From assembly GCF_016827605.1 (NCBI RefSeq), contig NZ_JAEPJQ010000006.1:186001-250000 (forward strand): DNA of 64,000 nucleotides, given 5' to 3'. This DNA comes from Hyunsoonleella ulvae. Lineage in GTDB: Bacteria > Bacteroidota > Bacteroidia > Flavobacteriales > Flavobacteriaceae. The notes beneath the pieces were generated by a model that did no database searches, was not told the origin of the DNA, and saw only the letters and a list, made by a program, of their open reading frames with translations. A program made the translations under genes and the position numbers. This document shows positions 40,960-48,306 of this stretch, in pieces; the first letter of the stretch is position 1; every line of letters starts with the position of its first letter.

Positions 40960-42102
40960 TTATAGTGTTTTAAAAAAAGCCTTTATAAAACTCCAAGAAA
41001 AAAGTGAAAACATAATTTTTAATTCTTCTAAAAAGTTAGATTCTTCATCTAAAAAACGAAACATAGTTTCAATATCATTTTTGGCATAAAACTGTTTAAA
41101 TATCCACTCGCCTTTGTGGTTTTCATCTTTTAAAACTTTAAGAAACACTTTGTCATAAAACTTATATTTCTTTTTAAAGAGATGATGCGAAGGTCTTTTA
41201 TTTGCTTTAATGTTAGTTATAATTTTTGCTACTTTCTGTTCTGTGTGTTTAAATGAGTATCCTGATGAAGGTTTTACCCAACCACCACCAGTACCAATTT
41301 TTGTGATATTTTTAGTGTTATATCGATCAAATAGAAAGGTTGTCATGGGAATATTTCCCGTTTCAGATGCTATAACTTTATAGTTTTCAATTTTTAGGTA
41401 GCCTTTAATGTATTTTTTTAAATAGATATCATATACTGACTCATCAACAGTATTTTCTGTAAAATAAGTAAACTCCACCAAGGCCTCATTTTTTGAAAAG
41501 GGCAGTACATAAGTGAATGTAGTTTGTTTGCCATCTTTTAAACGGTAATCCATCATAGTAAAAGTATCTACATCAAAAACATCTCTTTCGGTCTTGATGA
41601 TAATACCTTTAAAATGCTGATTTATCTTGATGCTTTTAGAATCTTGATAGAAAGATTCTGGTATTCTACTATCAAAAACATGATTTGCAGAAAAGCTATT
41701 TTTTTTAGTATTGATGGTTAAAGTTCCGTTTTCAGATAGGGAGACAACTTCATCAATTATAAAGTGAATGTTATTATGACTTTTTAATTGTTGTTTAGCG
41801 TAATTGTAAAAGTCAATAGCCTTAATAGATTTATATGTGTAAGGCGAGAGGTTTAAATCAAGAGTCTTTTCAAAAGCTATAATATTAGCTCTTTTCCATG
41901 TTTTCTCTGGTAAATAATTCCATTGCGAAGGTTCGGTTTCCCAAAAACTCCAAGTTTTGTCGTTGATGTTTTTTTCAGAGGGATCTATTAATGCAATTTG
42001 CTTATCGTAAAAAAAAGTATCTGAAGCCATTTTTAAAGCCAGTTGCAAACCTGCTAAACCATTGCCAATAATGATATAGTCAAAATGGGAACCAATTGGC
42101 AT
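40960..42102 (-). CDS. crtY: Lycopene beta-cyclase
   Basis: A 380-residue flavin-binding cyclase that converts lycopene to beta-carotene. FAD motif IIIGNGLAGLQLALKM; the family block NDKTWSFWE; and a C-terminal GTGGGWVKPSSGYSF that is typical of CrtY. The start MPIGSHFDY is retained because no better internal methionine lies near the FAD motif. Last gene of the carotenoid operon, six bases after crtZ. Confidence 0.95.
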   Translation of the reverse strand: MPIGSHFDYIIIGNGLAGLQLALKMASDTFFYDKQIALIDPSEKNINDKTWSFWETEPSQWNYLPEKTWKRANIIAFEKTLDLNLSPYTYKSIKAIDFYNYAKQQLKSHNNIHFIIDEVVSLSENGTLTINTKKNSFSANHVFDSRIPESFYQDSKSIKINQHFKGIIIKTERDVFDVDTFTMMDYRLKDGKQTTFTYVLPFSKNEALVEFTYFTENTVDESVYDIYLKKYIKGYLKIENYKVIASETGNIPMTTFLFDRYNTKNITKIGTGGGWVKPSSGYSFKHTEQKVAKIITNIKANKRPSHHLFKKKYKFYDKVFLKVLKDENHKGEWIFKQFYAKNDIETMFRFLDEESNFLEELKIMFSLFSWSFIKAFFKTL

Positions 42103-42108
42103 CTTTAA

Positions 42109-42561
42109 TTATTTCTTTTTGAAGTATTTAAAGGGGACTACAAGCATGCCAAAGCATTCGCCGTGACTTTTTCCTAGATGTTTATGGTGGATTTTATGAG
42201 CTCTCCGAACCCCATGTGCGTACCAATTATTGGCATTTCTAAACATTTTAAAACGCTGATGAATAAAAATGTCATGTACCAAAAAATAGCACAGGCCATA
42301 TGCAAAAATACCAAGACCTATGGGGAGTCCGACCCATAAGATGTTATGTTTCCAAAGTAAAAAAAAGCCAATGCTTACAACTGCATAAAAAATAAAAAAG
42401 GCATCATTACGCTCAAACCAACTGTCATGGTCTTTGTGGTGGTGGTCTCTATGTAAACCCCATAAAAACCCATGCATGATGTATTTATGTGTAAACCAAG
42501 CCATAAATTCCATAAAGCAAAATGTTCCTAAAAAAACGAGTATCCACAATACAATTTGCAT
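42109..42561 (-). CDS. crtZ: Beta-carotene 3-hydroxylase
   Basis: A 150-residue membrane di-iron hydroxylase that converts beta-carotene to zeaxanthin. The histidine boxes HKYIMH, HRDHHH, HDIFIH and HKIHHKH supply the metal ligands. Four hydrophobic helices. Lies between crtB (9-base gap) and crtY (6-base gap), which makes zeaxanthin the likely end product of this operon. Confidence 0.96.
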   Translation of the reverse strand: MQIVLWILVFLGTFCFMEFMAWFTHKYIMHGFLWGLHRDHHHKDHDSWFERNDAFFIFYAVVSIGFFLLWKHNILWVGLPIGLGIFAYGLCYFLVHDIFIHQRFKMFRNANNWYAHGVRRAHKIHHKHLGKSHGECFGMLVVPFKYFKKK

Positions 42562-42570
42562 GGTATAAAA

Positions 42571-43410
42571 TTACATTAAATTTAATTGATATTTTACATA
42601 ACTGCGCATCAAGAGTTCAATTTTTTTGGGATTAGAGACCCTGATACGCGTGTCTTTTATTCGCAATGCTGGTGTTTTCTTCAACTTTTTTAGAAGTTGA
42701 CTGTAGTAACGGTATGCCATAAAAACACCAAATTTAGCCTCCATTGGTAATTTTTTAATGCCGCTTAACCCTTTTTCAAAATCACTTTCAATATCATCAA
42801 TAATTTGTTTTTTGGAATTTTCGTCCAGATTATCTAAATCAATATTTGGAAAATAGCTTCTATTTAATTCATTAAAATCAGCTTTCAAATCTCTTAAGAA
42901 GTTTACTTTTTGAAACGCCGACCCTAACGACATTGCAGTATCTTTTAACTCATTAAATTTATTTTCATCTCCTTTTACAAACACCTTTAGGCACATTAAA
43001 CCAACCACATCAGCAGAACCATAGATATAGTCTTTGTATTCTTGGTCAGATAGATAATCACTTTTATGCAAATCTAATCGCATACTTCTCATAAAAGCAT
43101 CAACCATGCTCTTATCAATATTAAACTTATGATAAGTATACTGGAATGAATTTAAAATGGGGTTAAGACTTATTCTATCTTTAAGTGCATTTTCTAAATC
43201 TTCAGAAAAACGCTCAAATAAATCTTCTTTATCGTAACTATGAAAAGAATCTACAATTTCATCTGCAAACCTTACAAATCCATATATATTGTAAATATGC
43301 ATTCTAATGGAATTAGATAGCATTTTAGTGGCTAACGAAAATGAAGTACTATAACTTTTAGTTACTACTTTACTACAATTGTATGAAACGGTATCAAATA
43401 ATGCTTTCAT
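42571..43410 (-). CDS. crtB: Phytoene synthase
   Basis: A 279-residue squalene/phytoene synthase-type enzyme that joins two geranylgeranyl diphosphates. The first aspartate-rich motif is RFADEIVDS; the second lies in NFLRDLKADFNELNRSYFP. The first YSTSFSLATKML block is also typical. Starts one base after the crtI stop, consistent with one transcript. Confidence 0.96.
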   Translation of the reverse strand: MKALFDTVSYNCSKVVTKSYSTSFSLATKMLSNSIRMHIYNIYGFVRFADEIVDSFHSYDKEDLFERFSEDLENALKDRISLNPILNSFQYTYHKFNIDKSMVDAFMRSMRLDLHKSDYLSDQEYKDYIYGSADVVGLMCLKVFVKGDENKFNELKDTAMSLGSAFQKVNFLRDLKADFNELNRSYFPNIDLDNLDENSKKQIIDDIESDFEKGLSGIKKLPMEAKFGVFMAYRYYSQLLKKLKKTPALRIKDTRIRVSNPKKIELLMRSYVKYQLNLM

Positions 43411-43411
43411 A

Positions 43412-44875
43412 TTATTGATTATGGTGTTTATTAATAAGTTGCGCTACTAACTTTCCAGAAATTAGCGATGGTGGCACTCCAGGTCCTGGGACAGTGAGTT
43501 GACCGGTGAAATACAAATTCTTTACTTTTTTACTTTTAAGCTTAGGTCTTAAAAAGGCAGTTTGAGAGAGTGTGTTTGCCATGCCGTAGGCGTTACCTTT
43601 GTAAGAGTTGTATTCCTTGATAAAATCCTTAACGCAAAAGGACTCTTTAAAGATAATATTATTTGTAACATCTTGTTGTGTTAACTTGTTAAATCGAGAG
43701 ATGATGATGTCAAAATATTGTGCCCTAATTTCATTGGTGTCTTCAATACCAGGGGCTATAGGTATTAAGAAAAAACCTGTTTCACAATCCTTAGGTGCCA
43801 TTGATGTATCAGTTACAGAGGGGAAATTTGCATAAAATAATGGGTCTTTAGGCCATTTAGGGTTATCATAAATCTCTTCTGCGTGCGTTTCAAAGCTCGT
43901 ATCAAAAAATAAATTGTGATGATCGATATTTTTTAATTTTTTATTGAAACCCACATAAAATAGTAGGGATGAAGGTGCAAACGTTTTTTTAGACCAATAG
44001 GTTTCGGAATATTGTCTGTAGGTTTCATCGAGTAAAGTTTCAGAGTGATGGTAGTCTGCACCACTTAAAACAATATCAAAGGTTTTAATGACTCCATTTA
44101 CTTGTATAGAGGTAGCAGTTTTTTGCGCTACATTTATTTTTTCTACAGCACTATCAGTATATATTTTTACACCTAAGCTTTCAGCAAGAGTTTTCATGGC
44201 TTTTATCACTTGATACATACCTCCTTTGGGATGCCACGTGCCTAAACCAAAATCGGCATAATTCATAAAGCTGTAGAATGATGGTGTGTTACTGGGTTTG
44301 GCTCCAAGAAAAAGCACAGGAAACTCTAGAGTAGAAATAAGCTTGGGATTTTTAAATTTTTTTCTAACATCTCCACTAATGGTTTTAAAAAACTGGTCTA
44401 CTCGGGTTGCCGTTTCTGGCGTTACCAATTCAAAAGGCGATATTCCAGGTTTTAGCACTACTTTATTTATAGCTATATCATAATTAGTGGCTGCTTTGTT
44501 GATAAATTTCTGTAAAGGTTTAGAGCTGCCAGGTTCAATACGTTCGAATTCTGCACATATTTTGTCCATTGTGTCCCCTATGGTAATCACTTCATCTTTG
44601 AAGAAAATTTTATATGCTGGGCTGAGCTTGTCTAACTGATAATAATCGGAAGTTGACTTGCCAAAATCGTTAAAAAACTTTTCAAATATATCTGGCATCC
44701 AATACCAACTGGGACCAATATCAAAAGTAAAACCTTCCTTTTTTAGTTGTCTAGCACGTCCTCCAACCGTATCGTTTTTTTCAAAAACAGATACGTCAAA
44801 GCCGTACTGTTTTAAGTAACTACTGGCAGAAAGTGCTGAAAATCCAGAACCTATTATGGCAATTGTTTTTCTCAT
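43412..44875 (-). CDS. crtI: Phytoene desaturase
   Basis: A 487-residue CrtI-type FAD enzyme that desaturates phytoene to lycopene. The N-terminal motif is IAIIGSGFSALSAS, followed by VGGRA, and the C-terminal motif is GQLTVPGPGVPPSLISG. The preferred ATG at 44875 gives MRKTIAIIG; a TTG three codons upstream is less likely. It follows the MerR/B12 regulator by 42 bases, and both a GTTTAAC and a GTTAAAC site sit in that gap. Confidence 0.96.
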   Translation of the reverse strand: MRKTIAIIGSGFSALSASSYLKQYGFDVSVFEKNDTVGGRARQLKKEGFTFDIGPSWYWMPDIFEKFFNDFGKSTSDYYQLDKLSPAYKIFFKDEVITIGDTMDKICAEFERIEPGSSKPLQKFINKAATNYDIAINKVVLKPGISPFELVTPETATRVDQFFKTISGDVRKKFKNPKLISTLEFPVLFLGAKPSNTPSFYSFMNYADFGLGTWHPKGGMYQVIKAMKTLAESLGVKIYTDSAVEKINVAQKTATSIQVNGVIKTFDIVLSGADYHHSETLLDETYRQYSETYWSKKTFAPSSLLFYVGFNKKLKNIDHHNLFFDTSFETHAEEIYDNPKWPKDPLFYANFPSVTDTSMAPKDCETGFFLIPIAPGIEDTNEIRAQYFDIIISRFNKLTQQDVTNNIIFKESFCVKDFIKEYNSYKGNAYGMANTLSQTAFLRPKLKSKKVKNLYFTGQLTVPGPGVPPSLISGKLVAQLINKHHNQ

Positions 44876-44908
44876 GTTTAACAAATATAATTAAAAGTTA
44901 AACAAAAA
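44876..44908. promoter_or_regulatory. GTTTAAC...GTTAAAC inverted pair before crtI
   Basis: GTTTAAC (44876-44882) and GTTAAAC (44897-44903) are exact reverse complements, 14 bases apart, directly at the crtI start codon. The same GTTAAAC core is the centre of the palindrome over the upstream promoter (45832-45846). Possible second binding site of the MerR regulator; AT-rich chance remains possible. Confidence 0.4.
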
Positions 44909-44917
44909 GAACTGTAT

Positions 44918-45820
44918 TTATAAATCTTTAACTAAATTTTCGATGGAATCATACATTTTAACGCGCTCGGGTAAGCTCATGTTTTCATCTAGAGATACCA
45001 ATTTAGGACCTAAAAGCTTTAGGTTAATTTTAGAGTTGTTTAACAAAAGTTGGCTAAACTCCTTAAGGTAGTTTGGAATATCTTCAATTTCTGGCTTAAC
45101 AGTGAAGTATGTAATGAATGTTATTTCATCAAAAAACTCTAAAACACTTACTAAGCTAGACATAGGAACGCTTTCTCCCAAGAAAATAGTATGGTAACCT
45201 TTGCTTCTAAGTTGATAGTTTATAAATAGTAGACCAATGTCGTGTACTTCATTATCTGGTAAAAACAAAATGTAGGTTGTAGAAACAGGTTTAGGTTCTA
45301 AACTTTGAAGCCGTTCTATGTTTAATAATATTTTTTGTTTTATGTGCGATGTTAAAAAGTGCTCATGAGCAGGAGTTATGGTATCTGTTTGCCATAAAAG
45401 ACCTATTTCATGTAATAGGGGTAGAAAAATATCGTAGAAAATGTCATTAAAAGATTTATTTTCAATGAGATTGTTATAGGTGTTGTAGAATAAAACTTGA
45501 TCAAAATTTAGCATTGAGAGCTTGAAAGCATTTATAGCATGGTCTTCTACTTTTGCTCTGGATGCTATTTCCCTAACCTTAATAGGAATCTCTTCTTCAC
45601 TTAATTTTGCTATTTTAGAAATTTTGTAGCCACTATTATTTAAAAAAGATATATTTAGTAGCTTTTGAAGGCTAGCTAAACTGTAATTTCTTATGTTTGT
45701 TTCAGACCTATTAGGCTGCAATAAATTATATCGCTTTTCCCATATTCTTATAGTATGAGCCTTTATACCCGTTAGGTTTTCAAGATCTTTAATACTAAAA
45801 TTTACTTGCAAATTGTTCAT
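44918..45820 (-). CDS. MerR-family regulator with B12-binding domain (CarH-like)
   Basis: A 300-residue regulator. Residues 1-75 are a MerR winged helix (FSIKDLENLTGIKAHTIRIWEKR). Residues about 85-175 form the four-helix B12 cap with W143-x9-E153-H154, and residues about 180-300 a Rossmann-type cobalamin domain with E191-V-H193-D-I-G196, where His193 would be the lower cobalt ligand. These two motifs define the CarH/CarA family. The histidine that in Thermus CarH follows the tryptophan (His132) is Gln144 here. The start at 45820 is chosen to place the helix-turn-helix at the N-terminus. It is directly upstream of crtI, so a light- and/or B12-dependent repressor of carotenoid synthesis is the best reading. 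Confidence 0.9.
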   Translation of the reverse strand: MNNLQVNFSIKDLENLTGIKAHTIRIWEKRYNLLQPNRSETNIRNYSLASLQKLLNISFLNNSGYKISKIAKLSEEEIPIKVREIASRAKVEDHAINAFKLSMLNFDQVLFYNTYNNLIENKSFNDIFYDIFLPLLHEIGLLWQTDTITPAHEHFLTSHIKQKILLNIERLQSLEPKPVSTTYILFLPDNEVHDIGLLFINYQLRSKGYHTIFLGESVPMSSLVSVLEFFDEITFITYFTVKPEIEDIPNYLKEFSQLLLNNSKINLKLLGPKLVSLDENMSLPERVKMYDSIENLVKDL

Positions 45821-45831
45821 TAAAAAGCAAT

Positions 45832-45874
45832 TTTTGTTAAACAAAATTACGAATACCTCTTGAATAAACCTCAA
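45832..45874 (-). promoter_or_regulatory. Promoter with overlapping palindrome, CarH-like gene and crt operon
   Basis: Read on the minus strand: TTG (45874-45872), 22-base spacer, and a perfect TAATTTTG (45849-45842). The palindrome TTTTGTTTAACAAAA (7 + 1 + 7, positions 45846-45832) begins inside this -7 box and covers the expected transcription start. It ends 12 bases before the start codon of the regulator. Repressor binding there would block RNA polymerase. Confidence 0.6.
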
Positions 45875-46065: not shown

Positions 46066-48306
46066 ATGCGTTGGATAGTTTTGATTTTAACATTTTCATT
46101 GTTTTTGTCTTGCAAGAATGGTAAATCAGAATATATTGACACACAGAGTTTTACTAAAAAAAAGATTATTTCTACGCACTTAATTCCAGATGAACATTTT
46201 TTAGGAGATGAAGCATGTGCAAGTTGTCATAAGGCGCAATTTAAGGATTGGAAAGGATCGCACCACGATAAAGCCATGCAGGTTGCCAATGATACAACAG
46301 TACTGGGGAATTTTAACAACACTGTTTACAAAAGCCAGGGTATTACTTCTAGGTTTTTTAAAAAAGAAGGAGGTTATTATGTAAATACTGAGGGTAGGGA
46401 TGGCATGTATCATGATTTTAAAATTGAATATACCTTTGGCGTTGAACCTTTACAGCAGTATATCGTTAAATTTCCAGATGGACATTATCAATGTTTGCGA
46501 ACAGCTTGGGATACTGAAAAAGAAGAATGGTTCGATTTGTATCCAGATTTTAAAGTGGTACACTCCGAATGGTTGCACTGGTCCCGTGGTGGTTTAAACT
46601 GGAATAATATGTGTGCCGATTGCCACTCCACTAATGTTAGAAAAAACTATGATTTAGAGAACCATGCTTACAACACAAAATATGCTCTAATTAATGTAAG
46701 CTGTGAAACGTGTCATGGACCAGGCAAAACTCATGTTGATAACGTGACTACATTAGGGGATAGGTATAAGCCAAAAGGAGATTTAAAAATGACATTTGCA
46801 ACATCTCCAAAAACATTAGTAGACGAGTGTGCAAGATGCCATGCTAGAAGAGAACAATACTCAGAGTTTTATAATTTTGAAGGCACTTTTTTAGACCATT
46901 ATTTTCCGCAGTTAATAGCCAATGGATTATATCATCCTGATGGACAAATTTTGGATGAGGTTTATGTGTATGGATCGTTTCTTCAAAGTAAAATGTATCA
47001 GAATAACGTAACGTGTACCAACTGCCATAATCCACATTCTTTAGAATTAAAGTTTCAAGGTAATCTATTATGTGCCCAATGCCATGAACCCAAAACATAC
47101 GATGTACCTACTCACCATTTTCATCAAGAAGGTTCAGAAGGTGCAAAGTGCATCAATTGCCATATGTCGGGAAAGACCTATATGGGTAATGATTACAGAA
47201 GAGACCATAGTTTTAGAATACCCCGCCCAGATTTAAGCTTAAAATATGGCACACCTAACGCTTGTACTCAATGCCATACAGATAAAGATGATGAATGGGC
47301 ATTGGCAAATTACAAGAAATCGCATGGTACTCCTAAAAACAAACATTTTTCCGAGTTGTTGGCACCAGCGCTTACAGGTGATGTTCATGGTTTTGAGAAA
47401 CTATTGGAATTATCAAAAGACACTATTTATCCAGAAATAGCTAGGGCATCTGCCGTAAGGGCAATGCCTAATTATCTAGATGAAACAGTTGTAGAAAATA
47501 TGCTAGCCTTTTTAGATGATGATTCGCCACTAGTTCGAGGTGCAACTATCGATGCGTTTAGCGATATCAATTCTGGCGACTATATTAACTACTTCTTGCC
47601 TCTTCTTAGAGATGAAAAGCGCACGGTTAGGGTAAAAGCATTTTTGGCAATTGCTAGTCTTAACGAATTTCAATTACCAGAGGCGTATAGAGAGATTTAT
47701 AAAGAGGTTAAAAAAGAGTTTGAAACCCATTTAGATGTTACCTCAGACTTTTCAGGAGGAAGAGCAAAAAAGGCGCTTTATTTTCTTAAACAGGGAGATG
47801 TGGAAAATGCTATAAAATGGTATGAAAAAGCCTTGGAGATTGATAGTATGAATAATATGATTCGCACTAATCTTGCCAATTTATACTATAGAAATAAAGC
47901 TATTTTAAAAGCAGAAGAAGCCTTTAAAACGATTATTCAGCAAGAACCAAATTTTGCGCAGACCTATTATTCCTATGCATTGTTATTAGCGGAGCAAAAC
48001 AGGACAGATGAGGCGATAACTCAAATGAAATTAGCGATAAAGCACATGCCTGATAATGTAAGGTTTTATTATAATTTAAGCTTGCTTTATGATAAAGTGG
48101 GTAAGTTAAAGAACGCTGAGGATATCGCAGTAAAAGGCTTAAAACTAGATCCCAATAACGAAGGATTACTATATGTTATGGCTTATGTTTTTCAAAAGCA
48201 GGGTAATTTTGATAAGGCAAGAAATACAGCATCAAAGTTGGTAGAGTTGTATCCCAGAAACCCACAATATCGAAGGTTTTTACAACAATTGAATACTTCT
48301 CGATAA
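46066..48306 (+). CDS. Octaheme cytochrome lipoprotein with HEAT and TPR repeats
   Basis: A 746-residue lipoprotein (lipobox FLSC, Cys16). Eight CXXCH motifs bind heme: C51ASCH55, then CADCH, CETCH, CARCH, CTNCH, CAQCH, CINCH and CTQCH, the last near residue 400. Residues about 440-540 form HEAT-type repeats (EIARASAVRAMPNYLDE, SPLVRGATIDAFSD), and about 560-745 form several TPR units (YALLLAEQNRTDEAITQM). It probably acts in periplasmic electron transfer or as a reductase; the substrate is unknown. Related multiheme-TPR proteins occur in Bacteroidota and Planctomycetes. Single gene with its own promoter. Confidence 0.88.
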   Translation: MRWIVLILTFSLFLSCKNGKSEYIDTQSFTKKKIISTHLIPDEHFLGDEACASCHKAQFKDWKGSHHDKAMQVANDTTVLGNFNNTVYKSQGITSRFFKKEGGYYVNTEGRDGMYHDFKIEYTFGVEPLQQYIVKFPDGHYQCLRTAWDTEKEEWFDLYPDFKVVHSEWLHWSRGGLNWNNMCADCHSTNVRKNYDLENHAYNTKYALINVSCETCHGPGKTHVDNVTTLGDRYKPKGDLKMTFATSPKTLVDECARCHARREQYSEFYNFEGTFLDHYFPQLIANGLYHPDGQILDEVYVYGSFLQSKMYQNNVTCTNCHNPHSLELKFQGNLLCAQCHEPKTYDVPTHHFHQEGSEGAKCINCHMSGKTYMGNDYRRDHSFRIPRPDLSLKYGTPNACTQCHTDKDDEWALANYKKSHGTPKNKHFSELLAPALTGDVHGFEKLLELSKDTIYPEIARASAVRAMPNYLDETVVENMLAFLDDDSPLVRGATIDAFSDINSGDYINYFLPLLRDEKRTVRVKAFLAIASLNEFQLPEAYREIYKEVKKEFETHLDVTSDFSGGRAKKALYFLKQGDVENAIKWYEKALEIDSMNNMIRTNLANLYYRNKAILKAEEAFKTIIQQEPNFAQTYYSYALLLAEQNRTDEAITQMKLAIKHMPDNVRFYYNLSLLYDKVGKLKNAEDIAVKGLKLDPNNEGLLYVMAYVFQKQGNFDKARNTASKLVELYPRNPQYRRFLQQLNTSR

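Follow-up and report, generated by a model that had tools for sequence, protein, structure and literature searches.

A probable CarH-family light regulator and a candidate inverted-repeat operator at the carotenoid genes of Hyunsoonleella ulvae and other Flavobacteriaceae

Many regulators of the CarH family, not all, carry a second histidine after a tryptophan. In Thermus thermophilus CarH (TtCarH; PDB 5C8D/5C8E/5C8F), a carotenoid-gene regulator that joins a MerR HTH to an adenosylcobalamin (AdoCbl) domain with the motifs W-x9-EH and E-x-H-x-x-G, this is His132, and the reports on its H132A form conflict, earlier work giving light disassembly and a later study a protein that mostly stays tetrameric, according to the available part of PMC10442372. 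CtMerR of Chloracidobacterium (PDB 8JBS), 32% identical to TtCarH, likewise combines MerR and AdoCbl domains without the second histidine and has Arg at this position; it responds to green light and monomerises, its anaerobic light-state crystal has a water-mediated cobalt contact, and the accessible text of PMC11796333 describes no bis-histidine state. The photocobilin SasPcob, which has a biliverdin-binding domain and is not a MerR regulator, has Gln there, responds to green light and adopts a water- or hydroxide-ligated Co(III) light state, again with no bis-histidine state in the accessible text (PMC11796333, PMC10979010). The myxobacterial Cystobacter CarH, a dimer, and CarA are also CarH-family regulators of carotenogenesis, and the published CarH sites, in Thermus as well, are tandem 11-bp direct repeats, nnnnTnnACAn, with the core TnnACA (from the part of PMC9304148 at hand). 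The class II LitR proteins of Pseudomonas (PplR/PmlR2) keep only the four-helix B12 domain and are reportedly B12-independent, PmlR2 working with a LOV protein, and their light regulon includes photolyase, cryptochrome and folE (PMC9758184, in part).

For the light-induced carotenoids of Chryseobacterium the mechanism has been called unknown (PMC7064467, available section), and as far as the literature searched shows, flavobacterial light sensing for pigments, DNA photorepair and rhodopsin has not been worked out. Among the matches listed in searches on CarH/LitR in Bacteroidetes or flavobacteria and on flavobacterial light genes, which most subscription papers lie outside, we found no study of the regulator or the site described here, and the papers listed for the letters of the motif, 15 of 1087, appear to be chance matches.

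The window, that is the whole 64-kb stretch of DNA analysed, contains a MerR-type regulator gene followed in order on one strand by crtI, crtB, a gene that we presume from its sequence character to be crtZ, and crtY (Table 1). The first-pass annotation had set this regulator at the head of the crt genes, and the arrangement recurs: from 211 loci of relatives we removed 18 duplicate proteins, and 147 of the 193 unique relatives lie immediately before crtI (or crtB). The best named relative found, the H. pacifica homologue, is 97% identical in protein, and the crt cluster of Nonlabens spongiae is reported to have a MerR-family gene at its head (PMC11855829, in the portion available). The desaturase reaches 717 bits against a cut-off of 640 in the NCBIfam model CrtID, a bifunctional phytoene desaturase/3,4-desaturase, so the carotenoid end product may differ from plain zeaxanthin. 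Divergent from the regulator, a large plus-strand gene (46066-48306) encodes multihaem cytochrome and TPR domains, and the octamer TTGTTTAA occurs within the regulator coding sequence (45036-45043), perhaps by chance.

Table 1. Regulator, crt genes and putative control elements, in window coordinates.
Feature	Position	Strand	Remarks
crtY, lycopene cyclase family	40960..42102	-	Pfam/NCBIfam
probable crtZ, beta-carotene hydroxylase	42109..42561	-	sequence character; no Pfam or NCBIfam match
crtB, squalene/phytoene synthase family	42571..43410	-	Pfam/NCBIfam
crtI, phytoene desaturase	43412..44875	-	above NCBIfam CrtID cut-off
candidate crtI operator, TTGTTTAACTTTTAATTATATTTGTTAAACAT	44874..44905	-	1 mismatch; half-site 2 overlaps the -7 end and enters the crtI ATG
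likely -7 element of crtI's own promoter, TATATTTG	44882..44889	-	TAnnTTTG; inside the dyad
CarH/LitR-type MerR regulator, 300 aa	44918..45820	-	ATG 45818-45820; ORF, Pfam, profile, model
candidate regulator-gene operator, TTGTTTAAC-N14-AATGAACAA	45813..45844	-	3/18 mismatches; half-site 2 over the start codon
15-base palindrome, TTTTGTTTAACAAAA	45832..45846	-	left part is half-site 1 of the regulator dyad; right arm not conserved
likely -7 element of the regulator promoter, TAATTTTG	45842..45849	-	fits TAnnTTTG

The regulator is built of a MerR HTH, a four-helix B12-binding_2 part and a Rossmann cobalamin domain. Pfam recognises the N-terminal HTH (PF13411, 1.3e-14) and PF02607, and gives no match of PF02310 at 1e-3; a Bacteroidota profile of 67 relatives, chosen for diversity from the 211, matches Thermus CarH over positions 7-242 (E 6e-30), and in the structural model the complete cobalamin domain aligns to TtCarH. 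This AlphaFold2 model (pLDDT 92.8) has Thermus CarH chains as all its best 12 PDB matches, the remaining rows among the best 50 being TtCarH cobalamin domains and CtMerR (8JBS/8JBT), and the cobalamin domain is covered with a TM of 0.77-0.84 on target in three 8c31 chains among the matches listed. Unlike class II LitR, in which only the four-helix part is kept, the regulator has the full Rossmann part with its ligand histidine. It falls far below the cut-off of the NCBIfam CarH equivalog (66.1 bits vs 400).

Residues W143, Q144, E153, H154, E191, H193 and G196 all stand where they had been placed in the first pass, and both W-x9-EH (W143, E153-H154) and the cobalt-ligand motif ExHxxG (E191-V-H193-D-I-G196) are present. 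Trp143, Glu153, Glu191 and His193 are invariant in the 147 relatives preceding crtI or crtB, and 10 columns do not vary at all among the 67 aligned sequences: six residues of the DNA-binding part together with G140, W143, E153 and H193. The counterparts of W143, E153 and H193 in CarH are cobalamin and adenosyl contacts, and of the published light signature the regulator has GxxW, EH and GxxxP (PMC11796333 and, for the contacts, PMC10442372, both in the parts available). The GxxH position reads NxxH, as in 119/147 relatives, and in the alignment the Thermus dimer contact Arg176-Asp201 is replaced by V192 and S217. The CarH-like identity proposed earlier is borne out by the CarH-type fold of the model and the invariant cobalamin/light residues, and the regulator is probably a vitamin-B12 light sensor of this known family.

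In place of the second histidine of TtCarH the regulator has Gln144, which had been regarded as unusual. Comparing the residue after the tryptophan across flavobacterial homologues, as had been suggested, gave Gln in 139 of the 147 crt-adjacent relatives, His in 3 and other residues in 5; all 75 close relatives have Gln144, and none of the 46 unique relatives located elsewhere than directly before crtI/crtB has His. Gln is thus the rule in this Bacteroidota sample, with SasPcob as a photoactive precedent (PMC11796333, in part). On the precedents of CtMerR and SasPcob, we predict that the light state of the regulator is water- or hydroxide-ligated rather than bis-histidine. A protein that has no histidine here may couple photolysis to disassembly only weakly, as for TtCarH H132A (PMC10442372, available part), and it is conceivable that the repressor only reports the level of AdoCbl, light having no role in the cell. 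Both proteins with another residue at this position, CtMerR (Arg) and SasPcob (Gln), do respond to light (PMC11796333, as far as available), and we hold this reading to be improbable.

Upstream of the regulator, TTTGTTTA is found in 113/147 relatives, at a distance of exactly 25 nt from the start codon in 99, and in 109 of the 113 it belongs to a TAnnTTTG. TAnnTTTG is the -7 consensus of Bacteroidota. It occurs within 90 nt upstream of the regulator in 126/147, and is followed by TTTAA in 97/147 regulator promoters as compared to 26/1760 other TAnnTTTG in the same loci; a sigma-70-type promoter scan was uninformative (11 found vs 10.9 expected). The perfect palindrome previously noted here is real and overlaps the -7 element TAATTTTG, but its proposed role as the operator is not supported: the conserved portion is the left part, the right arm is not conserved, and the whole palindrome is perfect in only 10 of the 113 relatives that keep TTTGTTTA. 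As the window contains 6 perfect 7-1-7 palindromes, such a sequence says little by itself, and we consider that the palindrome is probably not the operator. Inspection of the column composition by eye showed no 11-bp direct repeats around TTTGTTTA.

A better operator candidate is an inverted repeat, TTGTTTAAC-N14-GTTAAACAA, a dyad of 32 bp with half-site starts 23 bp apart and 18 scored positions, which is stronger at crtI and weaker over the regulator start codon. Relatives show, between regulator and crtI, first TTGTTTAAC, then TATATTTGTTAAACAA and then the crtI ATG, and TTGTTTA or TAAACAA is present in 100/127 of these gaps (among those listed). With crtI start codons taken from the alignment, the dyad is found with at most 4/18 mismatches at 98/143 crtI starts, 45 being without it, and the best spacing is exactly 23 bp in 97 of the 105 crtI loci having any dyad. 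Regulator starts have the looser form (up to 4/18 mismatches) in 122/147 relatives, with 23 as the best spacing in only 64, and the background amounts to 45 occurrences elsewhere in the same loci (2,095,988 strand-bases). In 86/96 loci (≤3 mismatches) the crtI half-site 2 runs over the end of TAnnTTTG and stops no more than 2 bases to either side of the ATG, an arrangement from which we expect a separate crtI promoter and an mRNA with almost no leader. Rather than the single promoter for the regulator and crtIBZY that had been assumed, crtI thus seems to be served by a conserved TAnnTTTG promoter and a candidate operator of its own, and the control site expected for the crt genes is likely this inverted repeat at the crtI promoter rather than the palindrome.

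The regulator half-site 2 covers ATG-AAC-AAT. Codon 2 of the regulator is AAC in 110/147 and AAT in 5/147 relatives, whereas the rest of these genes uses AAT 2217 times and AAC 1243 times; this excess of AAC against the commoner AAT suggests selection at the DNA level. Each half-site contains the CarH core TnnACA, and the two cores face each other, so that the candidate site is inverted as compared to the tandem 11-bp direct repeats of Thermus and Cystobacter. A shorter motif, TAnnTTTGTTTAA, was tried as a regulon marker and rejected, since it occurs 23 times in the H. ulvae genome vs 18 for its reversed control.

The H. ulvae genome contains 9 dyads with at most two mismatches vs 1 for the reversed control; with three mismatches allowed, which includes the regulator's own site, the counts are 20 vs 12, and that site alone is not distinguishable from the control. 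Of the 9 sites 8 precede genes and one lies behind a fasciclin gene. The candidate targets are crtI, a GLPGLI protein, a unit of a 152-aa protein, TIGR03643 and folE, a TetR_C_23-ABC1 kinase unit, a mevalonate-kinase-like GHMP kinase, a YceI protein, a fasciclin protein and a repeat-rich, apparently secreted protein. The folE and ABC1-kinase units, each headed by a dyad, belong to a 14-kb photoprotection cluster on contig C19 (L348 3239-17614) with four photolyase/cryptochrome genes, folE, TspO, ABC1 kinase and flavin reductase genes, and putative SDR, SRPBCC-like and glutathione peroxidase-like genes. The conserved 152-aa protein of the cluster has no Pfam or NCBIfam match.

To this we add 66 dyad loci from 18 genomes, fetched from 77 sites (the first sites per genome) after excluding 11 known crtI-adjacent ones. 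A relative of the H. ulvae target set lies within about 1.5 kb in 50/66, and a set gene starts beside the dyad and points away from it in 44/66, as compared to 1/16 loci of a rearranged pattern (17 sites, 16 usable as loci), a control that differs from the reversed one of the genome counts. The sole rearranged-pattern match (L354, YceI) contains a TTGTTCAAC half-site. The 44 comprise 17 fasciclin, 10 TetR_C_23-ABC1 kinase, 6 152-aa protein unit, 4 GLPGLI and 3 crtI-like loci and single cases, counts in which L383 and L314 share one gene and the crtI match of L323 is weak (29%, to an FAD oxidoreductase). No adjacent set gene was found in 22/66 and no set relative at all in 16/66. Among the first 60 loci, 30 of the 31 dyads with at most one mismatch fall, as judged by hand, into a recurrent or plausible class. 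One dyad (L343; genome G034, C3:80294-80325) lies where a proteorhodopsin-type gene and the gene of a beta-carotene 15,15'-dioxygenase (blh) diverge, a single case hinting at possible light control of rhodopsin too.

Because the dyad also stands in front of photolyase/cryptochrome genes, folE, ABC1-kinase, fasciclin and isoprenoid genes and, in one relative, a rhodopsin gene, the regulator is probably a general light regulator, with a gene set wider than the carotenoid genes of the myxobacterial CarH/CarA systems. The set resembles the light-inducible LitR genes of P. putida (folE, cryptochrome, photolyase; PMC9758184, in part), and enrichment of a photolyase cluster in proteorhodopsin-bearing flavobacteria was already known (PMC5932025, available part). 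These recurrent, nameable neighbours, photorepair, carotenoid, folE and rhodopsin genes, also argue against a repressor that senses B12 alone, yet the 16/66 loci without a set relative might include B12 genes.

Across 397 Flavobacteriaceae genomes, 338 with dyads and 327 with a regulator match, dyads go with the crtI-type regulator. The 293 genomes called crtI-type (best E-value better than about 1e-52, crtI adjacency confirmed for part of them) hold 1313 dyads vs 311 for the reversed control, as compared to 57 vs 70 in the 70 genomes without any match, 31 vs 27 in the 27 genomes with only a second-type CarH-like protein and 8 vs 7 in the 7 with weak matches; related genomes are not independent, and the p-values of the palindrome, dyad and locus counts are only a guide. 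Fewer than two dyads occur in 18/293 regulator genomes, 4 of which have none, and at least three occur in 7/70 genomes without the regulator. Two of these, G060 and G383 (99-100% complete), have four dyads each, the controls being 0 and 1, and the profile search found no CarH-size protein in either. Such genomes would fit a dyad recognised by some other factor, with the CarH-like protein in control of itself or crt only and the co-occurrence due to ancestry. Against this stand the lack of dyad excess in the 70 regulator-less and the 27 second-type-only genomes, the position of the dyad at the start of the regulator and at the adjacent crtI, and the TnnACA core in its half-sites, and we give another factor little credence. 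These comparisons lend good support both to the dyad as the candidate operator and to its connection with the regulator.

As to cofactor supply, the PduO-type adenosyltransferase is present in 367/397 genomes, H. ulvae included, and because of this prevalence its presence has little power as a test of B12 dependence. It is found in 287/293 regulator genomes; the 6/293 without it were drawn from the 20 of 30 misses named, the lack in G280 and G375 being taken from their absence among the matches, and CobA is absent in the 4/4 of these six that were tested, G064 among them. Both sampled members of genus g65 (G064/L077 and G280/L369; small genomes, 99% and 96% complete) are without PduO, and each keeps the regulator and has 3 dyads vs 0 in the control; their regulators retain the key residues, with GxxxP changed to GQSNS. 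A persistence of this kind is what one would expect of a CarA-like protein that has the CarH fold and binds the dyad independently of B12, to be released by another light or singlet-oxygen signal or by a partner protein, M. xanthus CarA being a B12-independent CarH paralogue (PMC9304148, part available), and Gln144, NxxH and the changed dimer contact point the same way. W143, E153, E191 and H193, fixed in 147/147, are however hard to explain without cobalamin, and the adenosyltransferase accompanies nearly all regulator genomes; we regard a CarA-like protein as unlikely, though worth keeping in mind. In H. ulvae itself the PduO enzyme and four B12-binding-domain matches make use of the cofactor plausible.

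The fold, the fixed residues, the repeat, its co-occurrence with the regulator and the neighbouring genes were computed directly, and we infer B12 binding, light response, DNA contact, repression and oligomer change of the regulator. With moderate confidence we propose a Bacteroidota variant of CarH/LitR, a dark repressor of a photoprotection regulon that is relieved by light without bis-histidine ligation. In the dark the regulator would hold adenosylcobalamin, with His193 below the cobalt and the adenosyl group flanked by Trp143 and Glu153, and in this form it would bind TTGTTTAAC-N14-GTTAAACAA where the repeat overlies the -7 element and start codon at crtI and at its own gene, repressing both. 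Light would break the Co-C bond, Gln144 in place of the second histidine would lead to a water- or hydroxide-ligated state as in SasPcob, and without its adenosyl group the dimer or tetramer would loosen and release the DNA.

If so, this would be a natural CarH that signals light without bis-histidine ligation and seemingly reads inverted rather than direct repeats, of value for mechanism and for green-light tools, and since the 32-bp site is well defined and comes with a named regulator in most sampled Flavobacteriaceae genomes, simple tests are possible. More tentatively, and at slightly less than an even chance, the Gln-type CarH may be the master light regulator of the Flavobacteriaceae, a B12-based dark repressor that, in contrast to the direct-repeat CarH proteins, engages its inverted repeat symmetrically. 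It would govern together carotenoids, photolyases/cryptochromes, folE, isoprenoid supply and fasciclin surface proteins, as well as proteorhodopsin and retinal synthesis in those genomes that have them. The light response would then be tied to B12, a vitamin that many flavobacteria probably import.

Flavobacteriaceae also have CarH-like proteins of a second class, in which the tryptophan is mostly followed by Gly, and six loci of this class (L100, L105, L160, L161, L164 and L168) have TTTGTTTAACTTTG in the promoter.
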